A stretch of DNA of 33,085 nt from a virus: IMG/VR virus record IMGVR_UViG_3300013117_000131, positions 1 through 33,085 of that record. One strand, given 5' to 3'. Positions 24,529-30,662 of the stretch are shown one piece after another (the stretch's first letter is position 1; each line of letters begins with the position of its first letter). The position numbers and the translations under genes were made by a program. A model generated the notes under the pieces. The model saw only the letters and a list, made by a program, of their open reading frames with translations. It did no database searches and had not been told where the DNA came from.

Positions 24529-24660
24529 CGGTTCGCATAAGTTTTGAACGCTTTAACGGATTATTGAGAATTACAAAACTTTAAAATACAACAAAATGGA
24601 TATAAAAGGACACATGATGCAAAATGAAGATGCGCAATGCGCTATACAAAATGGTAGCAA
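24523..24660 (+). other. attC-like site 1 (degenerate, contains start of the Lar-like gene)
   Basis: Left core GCATAAC (24523-24529), left arm CGCATAAGTTTTGAACGC (24534-24551), then a leader and the first 19 codons of the gene at 24596, then right core GGTAGCAA (24653-24660). A local hairpin AAGTTTTG/CAAAACTT (24539/24574) is present. The long-range arm pairing is weak. Confidence 0.42.
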
Positions 24661-24817
24661 TCTTTTACCTTGCCCTTTTTGTGGCGGTAAAGTAGAAGAA
24701 GATGTGGTACAATGGAATATAGCACAAGCCAAATGTACAGAATGTGGTGAAACTTGGGGTACTTGCGGAAGTAAGTATGAAGGTAGATTTGAAAAGTGGA
24801 ACTTTAGGGCAAGGTAA
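24596..24817 (+). CDS. Lar-like restriction alleviation protein (zinc ribbon)
   Basis: 73 aa. The pattern LLPCPFCGGKVEEDV, then AKCTECGETWGTCG and KWNFRAR, matches the Lar-type restriction-alleviation family of phage and prophage small proteins (LKPCPFC, CxxCG, W-N-R). Lar proteins modulate type I restriction-modification in E. coli. The first 19 residues lie inside attC-like site 1 and the core GGTAGC encodes GS at residues 20-21, so residues 20-73 form the cassette module. Confidence 0.65.
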   Translation: MDIKGHMMQNEDAQCAIQNGSNLLPCPFCGGKVEEDVVQWNIAQAKCTECGETWGTCGSKYEGRFEKWNFRAR

Positions 24818-24820
24818 TTG

Positions 24821-24903
24821 TTGCTAACGACCACGCATAAGAACTGAATTACGCAGAAAAGGTAATACGATATATAAACTTCCACATTTACGAGCGTGGG
24901 CAA
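24821..24903 (+). other. attC-like site 2 (degenerate)
   Basis: Left core TTGCTAAC (24821-24828) is the complement of GTTAGCAA. TTGC and CCACGC (24831-24836) pair with GCGTGG-GCAA (24894-24903), leaving TAACGA bulged, as if the right core had lost its GTTA. The following leader holds a 13-codon ORF that overlaps the KH gene. Confidence 0.42.
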
Positions 24904-24952
24904 TACTTAGAATAATGACACAAATTGATGAAAAAGAATTGGAACAATTAAT

Positions 24953-25282
24953 ATGAAACAGAAAACTAACAAATTAGCACAATTTAAGCAATGGATTTTA
25001 TCTATTGTTAAGCCTCGTTTTTCACAAGATTTAGAACAGGCTAAAAAAGTTAAAAATTTATTCCTTATCTATTTTGATGGATGCTATGATATAGAATCAG
25101 GTGAAAACACCTCTAACACCTTTGCTATGGGAGTGTGTAAATTAGAATACAATGATAATACACTTACGGTACATTTGAGAAGACCAGGATTATTGATTGG
25201 CAAAGGTGGACGTATAATAGATGCACTTGCTAAACATTTGGAGTGCAAAATATATATTGTTGAAGTGAACCTTCTTAAATGA
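24953..25282 (+). CDS. KH-domain RNA-binding protein
   Basis: 109 aa. The C-terminal part carries a type II KH motif, RRPGLLIGKGGRIIDALAKH followed by LECKIYIVEV, like ribosomal protein S3 and related RNA binders, with an intact GKGG loop. The N-terminus is basic (LAQFKQWILSIVKPRF). It starts within ATGA of a 13-codon upstream ORF. As a phage cassette it might bind ribosomal or small RNA; this is inference. Confidence 0.72.
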   Translation: MKQKTNKLAQFKQWILSIVKPRFSQDLEQAKKVKNLFLIYFDGCYDIESGENTSNTFAMGVCKLEYNDNTLTVHLRRPGLLIGKGGRIIDALAKHLECKIYIVEVNLLK

Positions 25283-25283
25283 G

Positions 25284-25415
25284 GGTTAATGTTAAAATAA
25301 TATGAAACGTTGGGAATATACCGCTACACTGTACAGGCTTTGACCTATTGCGCAATATAGCAGCCTCGAAAGCCAATGGTGGTTGACCCAATGTTTTATA
25401 TTTAGTGTTATAAAC
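25284..25415 (+). other. attC-like site 3
   Basis: Left arm AATATGAAACGTTGGG (25299-25314) pairs with CCCAATGTTTTATATT (25387-25402): 14 standard pairs and two G-T. The right core is GTTATAA (25407-25413) after TTTAGT, resembling the end of Vibrio repeats. The 72-base loop contains a further hairpin (GGCTT ... AAAGCC) around ATTGCGCAAT. Confidence 0.58.
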
Positions 25416-25446
25416 TTTTAAAACGGAAAAGCTTTTTATGTATTGT

Positions 25447-25519
25447 GGCTAATGTGATGTGCCTGAATAAGCAGAGAATTTTTAAACGTGAATTATAAAC
25501 TAACAATTTAGATGCGATG
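25447..25519 (+). repeat. Leader repeat, copy 1
   Basis: From GGCTAATGTGATGTG to GCGATGG this leader matches 26309-26391 closely, the second copy having about 10 extra bases (AAGGGTAGTG). Each ends at the ATG of a different gene (25517 and 26389). Confidence 0.75.
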
Positions 25520-25674
25520 GCTAAAATAATATGTGATTATTGCGAATATGGAACAAAAAGTAAACTTTGCTATAAAGGAGGATATGAAAAGTGTAGAGGT
25601 GAATTATTTTTAGCTAGGCAAACAAAGCAACCTAGCGTGATTGATAGCGTTTTAAATTTATGTGATGTTAGCAA
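25447..25674 (+). other. attC-like site 4 (opened by a gene, weak arms)
   Basis: Left core GGCTAAT (25447-25453) and a leader shared with site 6, then 50 codons of the gene at 25517, then right core GTTAGCAA (25667-25674) in frame. Possible right arm GCGTTTTAAATTTATG just before the core pairs only loosely with the leader. Confidence 0.42.
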
Positions 25675-25786
25675 TAATAAAGTGGCGGTCAAAAGCTGCA
25701 ATGGTTGTGATTGGCAAAATGTTCATGACAGAAATGAACTTTGTCCAATTTGCAGAAACTATCAATACAATAAAGCTTTTGACTGA
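25517..25786 (+). CDS. Two-module cysteine-rich (zinc-binding) protein
   Basis: 89 aa. N-terminal module: CDYCEYGTKSKLC, with a later C (residues 5-30). At codon 51 the core GTTAGCAAT encodes VSN and begins a second module, NNKVAVKSCNGCDW, then NELCPICRNYQ, with two CxxC pairs. The second module shares its first 23 bp with the module in the gene at 27778 (codon 49) and ends at the same core, but the middle differs. Probable zinc ribbon; binding partner unknown. Confidence 0.65.
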   Translation: MAKIICDYCEYGTKSKLCYKGGYEKCRGELFLARQTKQPSVIDSVLNLCDVSNNKVAVKSCNGCDWQNVHDRNELCPICRNYQYNKAFD

Positions 25787-26036
25787 TTGCTAACGATTAC
25801 ATAAGAATAGTACGTAAAATTTAGTAGAAATTATAAACGAGAGGAATTAAAATTATGAGCAAAATAGATGAAATAATACATAAAGCAAAAGAGTTAAAAA
25901 GCTTAATGGAAGAGTTAATGCTTTATTTAGCATTGGATAAATACATAAACACAGTAGAATAATTTTAATTGATTAATTAACCGCCTAAGCAACCACGAGG
26001 TACACAGCAGTATTATTTTTATGTGTTGTTAGGCAT
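25787..26036 (+). other. attC-like site 5 (contains a 35-aa ORF)
   Basis: Left core TTGCTAAC (25787-25794), left arm ACATAAGAATAGTAC (25799-25813), right arm GTATTATTTTTATGT (26010-26024; 13 standard pairs, two G-T), right core GTTAGGCAT (26028-26036). The ORF 25855-25962 lies in the loop. A local hairpin, GCCTAAgCAACcAC with GTGTTGTTAGGC (25983-25997/26023-26034), gives a competing short site with two bulged bases. Confidence 0.68.
25855..25962 (+). CDS. Small helical protein, 35 aa
   Basis: Starts MSKIDEIIHKAKELKSL; a single amphipathic helix with regular leucine spacing. A GAGGAATTAAAATT leader, with GAGG 10 bases upstream of the ATG, could act as a ribosome site. It sits inside the loop of attC-like site 5. 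Confidence 0.48.
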   Translation: MSKIDEIIHKAKELKSLMEELMLYLALDKYINTVE

Positions 26037-26049
26037 TTTTAAAGTGCGT

Positions 26050-26304
26050 ATGGTTTTAATGGATGATACAAATTGTACTAGTGTTACGGGTTGGGATGAA
26101 AGCAGCACCGCCACTAGCGTAACATATACAAACTATTATAAAGATGATTGGGAATATGAACCAGATTACATTGCAGAAGAAATTGAAGCGGTGCGTTTTG
26201 GATGGCACAACCCAAGGAAAGTTAATTTACCAGTAGTAAATTTTAAGCCTAGAATACAGTTACAGATACGTAACCAGTTGCCGTATAAAATGCGGGAGGG
26301 CTAA
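26050..26304 (+). CDS. Hypothetical cassette protein, 84 aa
   Basis: I chose ATG 26050 (or 26059), since the open frame upstream runs through the attC core from a GTG and has no leader. It is rich in Thr, Tyr and acidic residues at the N-terminus (TSVTYTNYYKDDWEYEPD) and basic at the end (RNQLPYKMREG). No family recognised. It follows core GTTAGGC and ends at left core GGGCTAAT. Confidence 0.58.
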   Translation: MVLMDDTNCTSVTGWDESSTATSVTYTNYYKDDWEYEPDYIAEEIEAVRFGWHNPRKVNLPVVNFKPRIQLQIRNQLPYKMREG

Positions 26305-26308
26305 TTAT

Positions 26309-26391
26309 GGCTAATGTGATGTGCAAGGGTAGTGCCCGAATAAGGAGAGAATTTTAAACGTGAAATATAAATTAACAAACTAGGAGCGATG
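26309..26391 (+). repeat. Leader repeat, copy 2
   Basis: Second copy of the leader at 25447-25519, from GGCTAATGTGATGTGC through GAATAAG and AGAGAATTTTAAACGTG to GCGATGG. Confidence 0.75.
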
Positions 26392-26604
26392 GGAAAAGAT
26401 ACAATAATACCTGTAAAGTTTGAAAAAGAACTGACTAATGAAGAAATAGAAGCCTTTATTGATGTTGTTTCAGAATTTGCGGAAGCAGCTAAAATGGAAA
26501 TGACAATTATAAGTATGAGTGCTATTGCAAAGCGTGTGGAGGCAAGAAAGCCAACAAGCGAGCTAAACACTAAGGCATTACCTTTGCATGGTGTTGTATT
26601 TAAC
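26309..26604 (+). other. attC-like site 6 (opened by a gene)
   Basis: Left core GGCTAAT (26309-26315), left arm TGCAAGGGTAGTGCC (26322-26336), right arm GGCATTACCTTTGCA (26574-26588; 13 standard pairs, two G-T), right core GTTGTATTTAAC (26593-26604). Between the arms lies the first 62 codons of the gene at 26389; the right arm itself codes for KALPLH. Confidence 0.68.
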
Positions 26605-26775
26605 GGAGCGTGTAAATGCGATAGACCAGACCCATATAAGCAAATGCCTTATAAATGCTTTAGATGCCACGGGAAAATAGAGGTAAGCGAAGTGGAGTTA
26701 ATTTGCTCATGCGGCACTTTGAAGGCAAAAACTAATAATGGTTACGAATGCTGTAATGCGAAATGCAATAAATAG
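26389..26775 (+). CDS. Two-module protein with C-terminal zinc ribbons
   Basis: 128 aa. Residues 1-68 are helical with no cysteines (KELTNEEIEAFIDVVSEFAE). At codon 69 the core GTTGTATTTAAC begins the second module, VVFNGACKCDRP, with CFRCHG, ICSCG and CCNAKC, up to three cysteine clusters. The reverse complement of the core, TTAAATACAAC, ends the cassette at 26794. A second nested complementary pair, TTAATTTGCT (26699) and AGCAAATTAA (26774), is also present. Function unknown; the ribbons suggest nucleic acid or protein binding. Confidence 0.65.
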   Translation: MGKDTIIPVKFEKELTNEEIEAFIDVVSEFAEAAKMEMTIISMSAIAKRVEARKPTSELNTKALPLHGVVFNGACKCDRPDPYKQMPYKCFRCHGKIEVSEVELICSCGTLKAKTNNGYECCNAKCNK

Positions 26776-26783
26776 CAAATTAA

Positions 26784-26888
26784 TTAAATACAACGACTAG
26801 TGTAAACGCTGAATTGGGCAGCACTAACCCAATATTAAACGAACAAATTAACACGCCCAATTTTGCGTTTGACACATTGTTATAGGGC
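26784..26888 (+). other. attC-like site 7 (compact)
   Basis: Left core TTAAATACAAC (26784-26794), left arm TGTAAACGCTGAATTGGGC (26801-26819), right arm GCCCAATTTTGCGTTTGACA (26855-26874; 17 standard pairs, one G-T, one mismatch, one bulged G), right core GTTATAGGGC (26879-26888). At about 105 bp with a bulged base it closely resembles a classical attC site. Confidence 0.8.
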
Positions 26889-26905
26889 GTTTTTATACAA
26901 ATATT

Positions 26906-27136
26906 ATGAAATGTAGCAATGAAATACCAAAACTACCAAATGACTGCGGATGTAGTAATAATTTGCAGCCAATTAAAAGCATAGGGATACAAGGTAACAA
27001 GTACTTTGTTGATGGTAAATACTGGGGTGAAATAATAGAGAGAACAGATAATTACTTTAAAGTTGAATGCAGCAACGGAAATAAATATATGAAGGGGCAA
27101 ATTATTACGGTCAATTTTAACCTAAATGCCCTATAA
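26906..27136 (+). CDS. Hypothetical cassette protein, 76 aa
   Basis: An N-terminal Cys-rich piece (KCSNEIPKLPNDCGCSNN) and a beta-rich body (IQGNKYFVDGKYWGEIIE) that looks like a small SH3-like or OB-like barrel. The stop lies within the cassette-end core GCCCTATAAT, complement of GTTATAGGGC (9 of 10). A complete cassette with its own start. Confidence 0.6.
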   Translation: MKCSNEIPKLPNDCGCSNNLQPIKSIGIQGNKYFVDGKYWGEIIERTDNYFKVECSNGNKYMKGQIITVNFNLNAL

Positions 27137-27265
27137 TGACCTGTATATGGCATGAAGCCGTAAAAAATTAACAAAATTACAAATACAAGATAATGTTAAA
27201 TAAAGCAAATAAAGCCCAAATAAGACCACATAGCAGGCTTTTTGCTATATACTTTGTTATGTGGC
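27128..27265 (+). other. attC-like site 8 (compact)
   Basis: Left core GCCCTATAAT (27128-27137), left arm GTATATGGCATGAAGCC (27143-27159), right arm GGCTTTTTGCTATATAC (27236-27252; 14 standard pairs, two G-T, one mismatch), right core GTTATGTGGC (27256-27265). A 25-codon ORF (27193-27270) crosses the right core in the same phase as in the fused genes. Confidence 0.78.
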
Positions 27266-27276
27266 GTTAATTAATT

Positions 27277-27516
27277 ATGATTACAGTATGGCAATTCGAT
27301 GATTTATGGGAAGAAGGTTACAGATTTGATGATGTGGTTACAAAGAGATACTGCTTTATTGAACGGAAATACGTTAAGAACGAAAAGGAAGCGTTAGAGT
27401 TTCTTATTGATGCTTACAAATGGATTCCGAAAATACAAGGAACAAGCAAACATTTAAAATATGCTGAACAGCTTTCAGAAACTCTAGTAGCGGTTATTGT
27501 GGATAATGCCACATAA
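27277..27516 (+). CDS. Hypothetical cassette protein, 79 aa
   Basis: A compact alpha/beta protein (MITVWQFDDLWEEGYRFDDV) of no known family. A clean cassette: core GTTATGTGGC upstream at 27256, exact complement GCCACATAAC at 27508-27517, with the stop TAA inside that core. Confidence 0.62.
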   Translation: MITVWQFDDLWEEGYRFDDVVTKRYCFIERKYVKNEKEALEFLIDAYKWIPKIQGTSKHLKYAEQLSETLVAVIVDNAT

Positions 27517-27720
27517 CGGAATACAGATAAGCGTAGATTATTTAACGATTAAAAAAAACTAAAAAAATGTATTATAACGAAAAATTAATAAATGGAATAT
27601 GGCACTATAAGACATCTCCAAGAATGGAATGGAAACCTATGAGTGTAGTACAGTTAACTAATAAGATTGCAGACCAAGAACGTGAGTTAAATAATTTACG
27701 TTTATCTGGTGTTGTAAAAT
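27508..27720 (+). other. attC-like site 9 (opened by a gene)
   Basis: Left core GCCACATAAC (27508-27517), left arm CAGATAAGCGTAGATTATT (27524-27542), right arm AATAATTTACGTTTATCTG (27690-27708; 17 standard pairs, two G-T), right core GTTGTAAAAT (27711-27720). The first 48 codons of the gene at 27567 lie between the cores; the right arm codes for NNLRLS. Confidence 0.72.
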
Positions 27721-27743
27721 CGTTTTATGTTTTACAACGTTGA
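27567..27743 (+). CDS. Hypothetical small protein, 58 aa
   Basis: Residues 1-48: a W/Y-rich start (NEKLINGIWHYKTSP) and a helix (QLTNKIADQERELNNL). At codon 49 the core GTTGTAAAAT opens a 28-bp mini-cassette (27711-27738, ending TTTTACAAC) that supplies the last residues VVKSFYVLQR. This looks like a gene whose usual C-terminal module has been replaced or lost. Confidence 0.5.
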   Translation: MYYNEKLINGIWHYKTSPRMEWKPMSVVQLTNKIADQERELNNLRLSGVVKSFYVLQR

Positions 27744-27929
27744 ATATAAGATTAGTAAGGGATTAAAAAAACGAATTATGACAAGATTAGATTTAATAGA
27801 ACAATTTGAAAATGAAACAGAACTGCCTGCAACATGGAGTAATGGCGGTATGGGAGGTTATACAGAGGAGTATACTAAATGGGTAGAGCAAAAGTTAGTT
27901 AAAAATTTAACTATACCTGTTGTTAGCAA
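27730..27929 (+). other. attC-like site 10 (opened by a gene, moderate arms)
   Basis: Left core TTTTACAAC (27730-27738), left arm about TATAAGATTAGTAA (27745-27758), right arm about TTAAAAATTTAACTATA (27899-27915), right core GTTAGCAA (27922-27929). The arms pair with three mismatches, so they are less certain. The left-arm pattern (AT)AAGATTAGTA recurs in sites 5, 12 and 13. Confidence 0.5.
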
Positions 27930-28026
27930 TAACGAAGTGGCGGTTTGCGAATATGAATCGCAGCACGGATTTATGCAACAAGCATTAGGTTTTAATAGAT
28001 GCCCATATTGCGGACAAAGCTGGTAG
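27778..28026 (+). CDS. Two-module protein with C-terminal zinc ribbon
   Basis: 82 aa. I chose ATG 27778, because the frame upstream of it lies in the attC left arm. Module 1 is MTRLDLIEQFENETELPATW and an EYTKWVEQKL helix. At codon 49 the core GTTAGCAA starts VSNNEVAVCEYESQHGF, ending FNRCPYCGQSW. The module start is nearly identical in DNA to that at 25667. The fold resembles the Ea22-type mosaic proteins of phages in being built from swapped parts. Function unknown. Confidence 0.62.
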   Translation: MTRLDLIEQFENETELPATWSNGGMGGYTEEYTKWVEQKLVKNLTIPVVSNNEVAVCEYESQHGFMQQALGFNRCPYCGQSW

Positions 28027-28034
28027 CAAACTGA

Positions 28035-28243
28035 TTGCTAACGGTTTGGGTATGGCAATGTAATTTTACGAATTTGAAACACAAAACATTATGAATACAA
28101 AGAAATTAGAAATAGCAATAGAGCAATTAGAGAAGGTGCATAGAGATATGAATGATTGTGCTAACCGATTTATTTTAAAAGATGCAATAGACCAACTACA
28201 TAGGCAAGTAAAATTATTTGCTATACCTGATGTTGTGGAGAGC
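28035..28243 (+). other. attC-like site 11 (opened by a gene)
   Basis: Left core TTGCTAAC (28035-28042), left arm 28049-28069, right arm 28208-28227, right core GTTGTGGAGAGC (28232-28243). The arms form 18 standard pairs and two G-T with one bulged base, the best pairing in the array. The first 47 codons of the gene at 28091 are inside. Confidence 0.75.
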
Positions 28244-28333
28244 GAAGCGGTCGTTTGCCCTAAATGCAAAAGTGAGCATACGCAAAAAAGAGGCTGCGGG
28301 TTTGAATGTATTGAATGTTGGCATAAGTTTTAG
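28091..28333 (+). CDS. Two-module protein with C-terminal zinc ribbon
   Basis: 80 aa. Module 1 is a helical hairpin (LEIAIEQLEKVHRDMNDCAN). At codon 48 core GTTGTGGAGAGC starts module 2, VVESEAVVCPKCKSEHTQ, with GFECIECWHKF: a classical CxxC-CxxC ribbon. The cassette ends are complementary over more than 20 bases (GTTTGCCCTAAA with TTTAGGGCAAA and GTTGTgGAG with CTCTACAAC). Confidence 0.65.
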   Translation: MNTKKLEIAIEQLEKVHRDMNDCANRFILKDAIDQLHRQVKLFAIPDVVESEAVVCPKCKSEHTQKRGCGFECIECWHKF

Positions 28334-28340
28334 GGCAAAT

Positions 28341-28438
28341 GCTCTACAACGGTTAGTATAAGATTAGTGCGCTAACCACAGACCAAGATAAAAGCACTAA
28401 CATAACATAGCGCATTAATTTTATACATTGTTATGCGC
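28341..28438 (+). other. attC-like site 12 (compact)
   Basis: Left core GCTCTACAAC (28341-28350), left arm GTATAAGATTAGTGCGCT (28356-28373), right arm AGCGCATTAATTTTATAC (28409-28426; 16 standard pairs, two G-T), right core GTTATGCGC (28430-28438). About 98 bp, standard attC layout. Confidence 0.8.
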
Positions 28439-28453
28439 AGTAAATATTTTAAT

Positions 28454-28597
28454 ATGAAATACATAATTTTTATAAGAAATAGAGCTGGGGGAGGTAGATA
28501 CATAGCTTACTTTGATAGTGGTTATTATCATATTCAAGATGAAAATGGAAGTAGAACGATACACCAACGAGATGTTAAGCGTGCTTATTGCGCATAA
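28454..28597 (+). CDS. Hypothetical cassette protein, 47 aa
   Basis: A small beta-rich protein (MKYIIFIRNRAGGGRYIAYF, then DSGYYHIQDENG). It is a clean cassette: core GTTATGCGC at 28430 and exact complement GCGCATAAC at 28590, with the stop TAA inside the latter. Confidence 0.58.
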   Translation: MKYIIFIRNRAGGGRYIAYFDSGYYHIQDENGSRTIHQRDVKRAYCA

Positions 28598-28646
28598 CGT
28601 TGAGTGTAAGAATAGTAGCGGATTATTAACCACTAAATTTGATTAA

Positions 28647-29645
28647 ATGAACGAATGTAAAAAAGAAAAAAAAGGGAGGGATTTAAACGTTGTATATTGC
28701 GAAAACTGGTTAAATAATAACCTACCTGATAAAAGCGTACAATTATTGATTTGTGACCCACCGTATTTTGAAGTAAAAGGAGAATTTGACTTTATATGGA
28801 AAACGTTTGAGGACTATTTGGCTGATGTTGAAAAATGGGCGATTGAATGTAAAAGGGTATTAGCTGATAATGGCACTTTATTTTGGTGGGGTATGGATAG
28901 AAAAATTGCTTACGCTCAAATAATTTTAGATAAATACTTTTATTTAATTGGCACACCTGTTTGGGAAAAACCAAGCAACCCGAACGAATGGGATACAAGA
29001 AGAACTTTCCCAGAACGTGGAGCAGAAAGATTATTGATGTATAGCAACGAAGAAGATGTAACAGGATTAGAACAGATAATAGAGCAATATATAAAACCGA
29101 AAAACCCTTTTAGCCTGTACTTACAAGATGAATTTAAAAAAGCTAAAGTAACCAGAAAAGAAATTGCTAAACTTTTTCCAAGCAGAACAGGTGGATTAAC
29201 TGGCTGTGTTAGTAATTGGCTTAATGGCGATAACGTAATAACCGAAGAACAATATTTGAAAGTACGAAAGTATTTGAACAATGAATATTTAAGAAAAGAG
29301 TACGAAGATTTAAGAAAAGAGTACGAAGATTTAAGGCAGGAATTTGAACATAAAAGGCGGTATTTCAAAAACGATTTAGGGTTAACGGATATACTTAGAT
29401 TTCCGAGAGAAATAAACAATTACGACCACCCAACAAAGAAGCCTGAACAACTTACAAGAGCTTTAATATTAACTTGTAGCCGAAAAGGTGATTTAGTTGG
29501 TGTGCCTTTTGCTGGCTCTGGTACTGAATGCGATATGGCAGCCAAAGAAGGACGTAATTTTATTGGCTTTGATATTGAACAGAAACATGTTGATACAAGT
29601 AACAGGCGTTGCCAATGGACACTACGCCAACCCCAACTGTTTTGA
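28647..29645 (+). CDS. DNA N4/N6 methyltransferase
   Basis: 332 aa. Motif IV is DPPYF (residues 37-41) and the SAM-binding motif I is VPFAGSG (286-292), followed by FIGFDIEQKHV. The order IV then I and KKPEQLTRALI before motif I fit the beta group of type II methyltransferases. An insertion at about 165-240 holds an HTH-like stretch (VTRKEIAKLFPSRTGGLTGC) and a tandem heptad EYEDLRK (perfect 21-bp repeat near 29290-29330). No partner endonuclease is visible, so it is an orphan that probably protects phage DNA from host restriction. Confidence 0.87.
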   Translation: MNECKKEKKGRDLNVVYCENWLNNNLPDKSVQLLICDPPYFEVKGEFDFIWKTFEDYLADVEKWAIECKRVLADNGTLFWWGMDRKIAYAQIILDKYFYLIGTPVWEKPSNPNEWDTRRTFPERGAERLLMYSNEEDVTGLEQIIEQYIKPKNPFSLYLQDEFKKAKVTRKEIAKLFPSRTGGLTGCVSNWLNGDNVITEEQYLKVRKYLNNEYLRKEYEDLRKEYEDLRQEFEHKRRYFKNDLGLTDILRFPREINNYDHPTKKPEQLTRALILTCSRKGDLVGVPFAGSGTECDMAAKEGRNFIGFDIEQKHVDTSNRRCQWTLRQPQLF

Positions 29646-29736: not shown

Positions 29737-29819
29737 GTTAGGCACTGTGCCTTTTTTGATAGATGCACAGACCTACCAATGACAGCGAATAAAGATAATA
29801 TATAGGCATTGTGCCTAAC
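29737..29819 (+). other. ORF-less mini-cassette or att site next to the recombinase
   Basis: Starts GTTAGGCACTGTGCC (29737-29751) and ends GGCATTGTGCCTAAC (29805-29819), complementary at 13 of 15 positions. No gene lies inside. No L'' arm follows the last core, so this is the end of the array. It may be the phage equivalent of attI or a landing site. Confidence 0.5.
29740..29757 (+). terminator. Possible terminator at the array end
   Basis: AGGCA-CTG-TGCCT followed by TTTTTT. The stem is only 5 bp, so it is weak. A similar hairpin (AGGCA-TTG-TGCCT) without T-run lies at 29804-29816. Confidence 0.4.
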
Positions 29820-29855: not shown

Positions 29856-30662
29856 ATGAATGCGAAAGGAAGGTCAACTCTCAAAAAACTTGAATCAGAA
29901 TTGAAGTTTAAAAATTACGCAGAAAACACTATTAAAGTATACTTGTTTTATGCAGAGGTATTTTTAAATGAATTTGATTGTGATGTTTACCATATTGGAC
30001 AAAAGAAAACGATCGAATATTTAAAGAATAAAAAATTTAATTCTATTTCACAACAGAACCAATATATAAGCGCAGTAAAAACTTTATTTAAATATATTAT
30101 TGGGAGCAAATTAGAGCAATTTAAAATCGAAAGACCAAAGAAAAATAAAACCCTGCCGAAAATTATAGATAACGCACACCTTATAAATTCAATAAATAAT
30201 ATTGATAATTTAAAACATAGGGCAATATTAAGTTTGGCTTATTCTGTAGGGCTTAGAGTTTCGGAAGTTATTAATTTGAAAATATCTGATATTGATAGTA
30301 AGAGAATGTTAATATTAATAAAAAATGCTAAAGGACATAAAGATCGTTTAGTTCCGTTAAGCGAAAATATATTAATTTTACTTAGAAATTATTACAGAGA
30401 ATTTAAGCCATATAAATATTTATTTAACGGCCAATGTAAAATGCAATATACAGCAAATAGTTGCAATAAGTTAGTAAAAAAATATTTAGGTAATAATTAT
30501 CATTTTCATATGTTGAGACATTCAAGTTTTACTGCAATGTTAGAAAATGGAACGGATATAAGTTTAATTCAAAAAATTGCAGGGCATGCAAAAACTGATA
30601 CGACAAGAATTTATACACATGTAAGTAATCAATTATTAAGTAAAATTGCATTGCCATTATGA
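29856..30662 (+). CDS. Tyrosine recombinase (Xer/integrase type, not IntI)
   Basis: 268 aa with a complete active site: R134 (GLRVSEVINL), K159 or K162 (AKGHKDR), H218-x-x-R221 (FHMLRHS), H244 (IAGHAK) and nucleophile Y253 (RIYTHV). N-terminal SAM-like core-binding domain at 1-90. The roughly 20-aa extra segment between the K motif and the HxxR box that lets IntI bind folded attC is absent; the stretch 167-216 is short. It lies 37 bp after the last array core. Either it integrates the phage genome, or it works on the array, or both. The start follows CCTAAATTATTAAAT. Confidence 0.88.
   Translation: MNAKGRSTLKKLESELKFKNYAENTIKVYLFYAEVFLNEFDCDVYHIGQKKTIEYLKNKKFNSISQQNQYISAVKTLFKYIIGSKLEQFKIERPKKNKTLPKIIDNAHLINSINNIDNLKHRAILSLAYSVGLRVSEVINLKISDIDSKRMLILIKNAKGHKDRLVPLSENILILLRNYYREFKPYKYLFNGQCKMQYTANSCNKLVKKYLGNNYHFHMLRHSSFTAMLENGTDISLIQKIAGHAKTDTTRIYTHVSNQLLSKIALPL

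Follow-up and report, generated by a model that had tools for sequence, protein, structure and literature searches.

The virus record IMGVR_UViG_3300013117_000131 is a circular contig of 33 kb with a 119-bp terminal repeat, analyzed here over its full 33,085 nucleotides (nt), which we call the window. At 24.3-29.85 kb it bears an integron-like cassette array, with a tyrosine recombinase gene directly downstream (start 29856), in which the recombination sites of many genes are themselves coding: the gene begins within an attC-like site and is read in frame through the right-hand core of that site (R') into the cassette body. With considerable confidence, we regard it as a phage-borne integron-like array of inverted gene polarity, in which whole genes are shuffled at the left-hand box of the site (R'') and their N- and C-terminal modules are re-paired in frame at R' on a slower time scale.

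Anatomy of the cassettes and their sites

The array was compared with ~340 fetched loci (denoted L with a number), which were retrieved by patterns containing the half sites and whose counts give no prevalence. Each cassette body has GTTRNNNNN at its start and the exact complement of this (8-10 nt) at its end, and the sites have the attC-like layout R''-L''...L'-R', with self-complementary R boxes for each cassette; bodies with complementary ends and flanking L-like boxes number 138 in the fetched loci, where shuffled sequence gives 5-6. Each closing box is followed by a left arm (GGTTTGNGTATG.. or a like sequence), and each opening core is preceded by a right arm (..TATACCTGTT). In the canonical form, a short stem-loop separates the arms and the body contains the gene. 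The read-through form has a longer inter-arm stretch, which carries a leader, the start codon and the N-terminal codons of a gene whose frame continues across the right arm and GTT core and ends beside the closing box. Both forms coexist in single arrays, those of isolated phages (L002-L004) included. The cassettes and sites of the window are as follows:

24596..24817, plus strand: read-through gene comprising N-module, degenerate core GGTAGCAAT (24653-24661) and C-module, phase 0; closing box GTTGCTAAC at 24820-24828, 7/9 complementary
25517..25786, plus strand: read-through gene, core GTTAGCAAT at 25667, zinc-ribbon C-module starting VSNNKVAV, phase 0; closing box ATTGCTAAC at 25786-25794, 9/9
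26389..26775, plus strand: read-through gene, core GTTGTATTT at 26593, cysteine-rich C-module, phase 0; closing box AAATACAAC at 26786-26794, 9/9
27256..27517, plus strand: canonical cassette body with core GTTATGTGG and internal gene 27277-27516; closing box CCACATAAC at 27509-27517, ends 9/9 complementary
27567..27743, plus strand: read-through gene, core GTTGTAAAA at 27711, 28-nt mini-body closing at 27738, phase 0; box at 27730-27738, 9/9
27778..28026, plus strand: read-through gene, core GTTAGCAAT at 27922, zinc-ribbon C-module starting VSNNEVAVC, phase 0; closing box at 28034-28042, 9/9
28034..28240, plus strand: attC-like site with a coding loop (predicted fold), comprising R'' at 28034-28042, left arm, start codon and N-module of ORF 28091, right arm and R' at 28232
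28091..28333, plus strand: read-through gene (open reading frame, ORF, 28091), core GTTGTGGAG at 28232, C-module starting VVESEAVVCPKC, phase 0; closing box CTCTACAAC at 28342-28350, 8/9; left and right arms pair in the fold
28342..28438, plus strand: canonical attC-like site, a non-coding stem-loop with a ~19-bp L''/L' stem in the predicted fold
28430..28598, plus strand: canonical cassette body GTTATGCGC..GCGCATAAC with ORF 28433-28597; ends 9/9 complementary
29737..29819, plus strand: last cassette body GTTAGGCAC..GTGCCTAAC; ends 9/9 complementary

The original prediction, made from the letters of the window, held that in seven ORFs (24596, 25517, 26389, 27193, 27567, 27778 and 28091) the core lies in frame with its first base at codon position 1; this is the case in all seven, with the cores where it had placed them, and each of the seven has a complementary box just 3' of the stop codon. 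Six of these are real read-through genes fusing an N- to a C-module, but ORF 27193 (27193-27270) is spurious: it ends four codons past the core, and the real cassette gene is the internal one at 27277-27516. The C-terminal parts had been described as mostly zinc ribbons, and a cysteine-rich or zinc-ribbon tail indeed follows five of the six real cores, with the C-module of ORF 24596 being a weakly Lar-like zinc ribbon (PF14354, E 3e-5, under the gathering score).

Frame lock and evidence for coding

Among the read-through ORFs of the fetched loci, with cassettes not used as search seeds, the core lies in phase 0, 1 and 2 in 56, 4 and 11 cases, and GTTA cores alone show a phase split of 46 versus 9 (p 4e-7). 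Under a looser definition that includes the seeds the numbers are 108, 10 and 21, with ~10 of the 108 phase-0 ORFs being artifacts or near-duplicates that were later removed. Taken from the window alone, the phase pattern has a chance of ~1/216 and is weak evidence, because phase 1 of GTTAG or GGTAG always yields a stop codon. Across 76 aligned read-through proteins the mean column identity is 6%, and only the valine of the core is nearly invariant, the start methionine aside. Both the N and the C parts look translated, judging from their substitutions, because these favor the third codon position in each (81, 56 and 114 by codon position in the N parts; 131, 108 and 173 in the C parts).

Pfam, PHROGs and PADLOC name few of the modules: three are Lar-like, and DUF551, YunG-like and KH domains occur once each, the PADLOC matches being weak. 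Hints of function are limited to a few Lar-like, zinc-ribbon, KH and DUF551 matches, and a tblastn search of isolated phages with one C-module and ORF 27778 gave no match. The read-through proteins are presumably expressed, and might act as small host-takeover or anti-defence factors.

Reassortment of N- and C-modules at the core

We curated 98 read-through proteins and considered families with two or more members. All 12 N families have differing C families and all six C families have differing N families; in a control, where other small ORFs of the same loci were split mid-way, 15/31 and 14/26 half-homologous pairs retain both halves. A shared N-module is seen in the pair L114 and L329, which have in common 190 nt (98% identical) from the left box to GTTGTTA and nothing alike outside. 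Likewise, the N-module MKKEQNL..EQALTIPV is joined to seven different C-modules, through cores GTTAGC, GTTACC and GTTATG. Conversely, a search with 20 nt of the C-module start VSNRREL recovered 18 IMG/VR contigs, or 19 with phage Freya_8, where it stands behind 12 N families, always in frame and with the switch exactly at the core; identity within this set is 0.48-0.58 before the core and 0.99-1.00 after it. The start of the C-module of ORF 25517 is also found in ORF 27778, there on an unrelated N-module, and this VSNN(E/K)VAV start lies behind six N-modules in all (two in the window and those of L210, L348, L349 and L350). The expectation that one N-module would be met with different C-modules, switching at the valine codon of the core, is thus borne out, as is its converse for C-modules, and N and C parts that always keep together in homologues, the outcome named as refuting it, were not seen.

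Pairing of the arms and the folded strand

The non-coding left arm and the coding right arm of a read-through site are complementary. Over the 44 such sites whose upstream box was verified, the median pairing energy of the two arms is -14.0 kcal/mol, as against -6.2 kcal/mol when arms are swapped in from other sites (p 6e-20); 86% of the own pairs are among the best 5%, over loops of mostly 107-280 nt. Canonical sites show the same behavior. In the window, the site of ORF 27567 has a 22-bp arm pairing over a 193-nt loop (-16.8 kcal/mol). The sense strand forms the more stable hairpin in 41/42 read-through and 41/45 canonical sites, with G-T pairs in the stems, whereas shuffled arms give 50%, that is, no strand bias; for the site at 28034-28240 the values are -13.3 (sense) and -9.6 kcal/mol (antisense). 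Since the sense hairpin is more stable, we take the sense strand, by analogy with integrons, as the probable folded strand, which would be cut at YAA^C of the left half once the site has folded as a single strand.

Some further observations concern the loops and bodies. The genes at 25517 and 26389 share a 46-nt leader (83% identical; 25480-25525 and 26352-26397) and have unrelated N-modules, which suggests that exchange may occur within the loop region too. Mini-bodies of 28-29 nt (GTTGTANNNTCGTTTTAATGNNNTACAAC and variants) and of 38 nt (VSKTK and stop) turn up repeatedly in contexts that are unrelated; their loop TCGTTTTAATG is conserved and their stems are compensating (L109, L321, L044, L060, L042, L085, L065, L307; window 27711-27738); that of ORF 27567 has a near-identical counterpart of 29 nt in L109 and L321. 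A d(GCGAAGC)-like mini-hairpin is not enriched after R' (15/89 versus 17/140 control positions).

Movement of whole cassettes

L302 and L311 represent a single phage (98-100% identity) and differ in cassette order, the junctions lying at AAC of the left half; between L008 and L099 one cassette has been replaced, again with both ends at AAC. Cassettes are thus reordered and replaced at the R box. Because the junctions coincide with the left-hand core (..TAA^C, 3' of the stop codon), such recent events move the entire gene, including its attC arm and N-module. This qualifies the proposal that the C-terminal part is a cassette of its own: N and C parts are indeed unlinked at the core, but the recent events cut the left-hand core and carry the whole gene. 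Both the polarity of the folded strand and the junctions place attC at the 5' end of the gene, so that the cassette genes are inverted relative to those of classical integrons, where attC is at the 3' end. Whole-gene movement at the left half fits this fold-inferred polarity and the position of the integrase directly 3' of the last half site. All cassettes of the array are co-oriented, and the events seen are reorderings and replacements (no search was made for inversions).

Integrase and genomic context

The window contig has the structural and replication genes of a tailed phage. Downstream of or within the array lie:

28647..29645, plus strand: DNA methyltransferase gene within the array (PF01555, 3e-34), with 75.6% DNA identity to a Flavobacterium phage methyltransferase
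29817..29855, plus strand: attI-like half site (AACTATTATATAT..) before the integrase start, with the same place in L059, L072, L329, Leef_1, Freya_8 and Ingeline_1
29856..30662, plus strand: XerA/IntI-related tyrosine recombinase of 268 aa (PF00589, 1e-34)

The integrase scores 166 bits against NF040815 (cut-off 220), 130.5 bits against TIGR02249 (cut-off 265), where the match falls in two stretches and the insert region is unmatched, and 76 against the integron integrase model NF011946 (cut-off 435). Its nearest annotated relatives are in the North Sea flavobacterial phages Ingeline (Duneviridae), Freya (Forsetiviridae) and Leef (Helgolandviridae); an IMG/VR protein search with the single integrase sequence gave no match. 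In those fetched arrays that hold an integrase, its gene directly follows the last half site, and the half site immediately 5' of it in seven loci is, on sequence, a putative attI. The arrays seem to live mainly in phage genomes, because the exact core-plus-linker pattern is present in only one of 296 sampled Bacteroidota host genomes; prophages accordingly yielded little.

The methyltransferase within the array parallels those reported in phage attC clusters. Elsewhere in the window, at 1492-1776, there is a 60-nt inverted repeat (98%) of GTGTAAACA units with an inner inverted pair (1569-1599/1669-1699), which looks like an operator or the iteron region of a replication origin.

Mechanism and alternative explanations

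We envisage that an XerA/IntI-like tyrosine recombinase would act on attC-like hairpins of the sense strand. The mobile cassette would be bounded by successive R'' boxes (..YAA^C, each following a stop codon). It would begin with the left arm, the 5' leader and the start codon with the N-terminal codons, and continue with the right arm, the R' core, the remainder of the gene and R''. Many cassettes would have their leader and N-terminal codons in the hairpin loop of attC, and would gain a linker of fixed frame (hydrophobic-Ile-Pro-Val/Val-Ser) from translation of the right arm and R'. The most probable course is that the integrase acts on the folded sense strand, with recombination at R'', and that cassettes are thereby shuffled as whole genes. 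More rarely, over a longer time scale, the other R box might be cut and the body (R' to R'') and the N-module loop re-paired at R', an exchange that would keep the reading frame from N- to C-module, given that the core is invariably in phase 0. This exchange would probably be catalyzed by the adjacent integrase and would involve minor-strand use of R'. Both R boxes can plausibly serve, because in the V. cholerae attC co-inverting the extrahelical bases and the spacer moves the recombination point to the R'' box (PMC2727003).

Several observations weigh against this picture. The exchanges between near-identical phages are all at R'' and none at R', and in some N-family pairs the switch precedes the core by 2-6 nt. 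At the site of ORF 27778 the pairing of the arms is weak (-4.5). By profile match the window integrase is without the IntI-specific insert, and it falls below both the integron and the Xer cut-offs. Lastly, diverged homologues in the VSNRREL sample (L107/L353, L356/L359) have inherited two or three N+C combinations together, as is to be expected if whole cassettes travel too.

The fullest version of this scheme is that of programmed combinatorial protein diversification, in which the integrase uses both R boxes, moving whole genes at one and, at the other, assembling novel in-frame proteins of two modules, for which the hairpin arm is the translated linker; we are about equally inclined to accept and to doubt it. 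It is possible, if rather unlikely, that the N/C mosaics arise because the short, conserved right half (TATACC.GTTGTTAGC) supports ordinary homologous or annealase-driven exchange, selection then retaining the in-frame products and the integrase shuffling whole genes at R'' only. The 10-20 nt that N families often share before the core and the location of recent events at R'' both point that way; however, N families behind one C-module have too little identity up to the core (0.48-0.58) for easy homology-driven exchange, and R' and R'' remain matched within each body.

Two explanations that dispense with recombination at the core, or with the genes themselves, appear very improbable. If the constant frame reflected a peptide constraint, with ..IPV/VS.. 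as the functional linker of one diverging family, the recurrence of LTIPVVS as a peptide would be accounted for, but not the pairing of the right arm with its own non-coding left arm, nor the range of residues encoded after the core valine (S, V, I, T, K, R, G or N), nor the identical boxes that flank non-coding canonical cassettes; moreover, N and C parts are unlinked, and the L114/L329 pair and the VSNRREL set already contradict it. We give equally little credence to the read-through ORFs being chance ORFs across non-coding attC sites: ORF 27193 is one such case and some ORFs in phases 1 and 2 do occur, yet the 46:9 bias of GTTA cores, the third-position substitution excess, the protein-family homologies of the C-modules and the stop codons adjoining R'' all argue for genuine genes.

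Comparison with known systems

The arrays agree with integrons under a strict definition in site architecture and cassette shuffling and depart from them in integrase and gene polarity. Like class 1 integrons and the Vibrio superintegron, the array has cassettes beside a tyrosine recombinase, the R''-L''-L'-R' layout, R'/R'' complementarity of 9-10 nt per cassette (9-11 nt in integron cassettes; PMC2727003) and junctions at YAA^C/G^TT. Carriage by phages is also known: integrons and clusters of attC sites lacking integron integrases (CALINs), or attC sites, have been described in phages, and attC2 of Polaribacter phage P12002L is recombined by IntI1 (Qi et al., 2023; PMC9892861), a text in which in-frame joining is not mentioned. 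The open-access literature that we searched likewise holds no account of frame-preserving domain shuffling by integrons, in keeping with the original prediction that it was undescribed. In Treponema integrons the integrase points toward attI, and no coding attC loops were found described for them (PMC3607928); here, the attI-like half site is 5' of the integrase start and the cassette genes point toward the integrase.

A chromosomal array shows the opposite orientation. Lutibacter oricola DSM 24956 has a large array (L141, L143, L147, L158, L166) with bodies of ~0.4-1 kb, and the TIGR02249 matches of its genome are all below the cut-off. It has the same half-site sequences and R'/R'' rule as the phages; unlike in them, its attC sites have a conserved middle of ~120 nt, its genes lie within the bodies, and the longest ORF is on the opposite strand in 25/27 bodies, which is the classical polarity. 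Since these ORFs lie on the other strand next to the same half sites, it is the phages that have the inverted gene polarity.

In shufflons (R64 pilV/Rci) and in hsdS shuffling, too, a tyrosine recombinase swaps C-terminal segments in frame at a repeated core. Those systems work by inversion, at double-stranded repeats, within a small and fixed stock of segments, whereas here the set of cassettes is open-ended, with attC-like hairpins, and is reassorted between phages. Fused resistance-integron gene cassettes, with two genes joined in frame, were reportedly noted by Centron and Roy in 2002, a work cited in PMC12901181; these are isolated events, as opposed to the general in-frame design of the sites described here. 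The arrays draw attention to a tyrosine recombinase that lies outside the IntI subfamily and may use attC-like hairpins as substrates. They might account for some of the fast turnover of small unknown genes in Bacteroidota phages, and they constitute a natural dataset on the joining of attC sites to new genes. Unlike in integrons, their genes are inverted relative to attC, with the 5' end in the attC loop and read in frame through R', their integrase is without the IntI insert, and proteins are rebuilt from N- and C-modules. Integrons are known for the shuffling of whole genes, whereas here the site itself is coding and frame-locked, so that the same chemistry can build proteins from modules.

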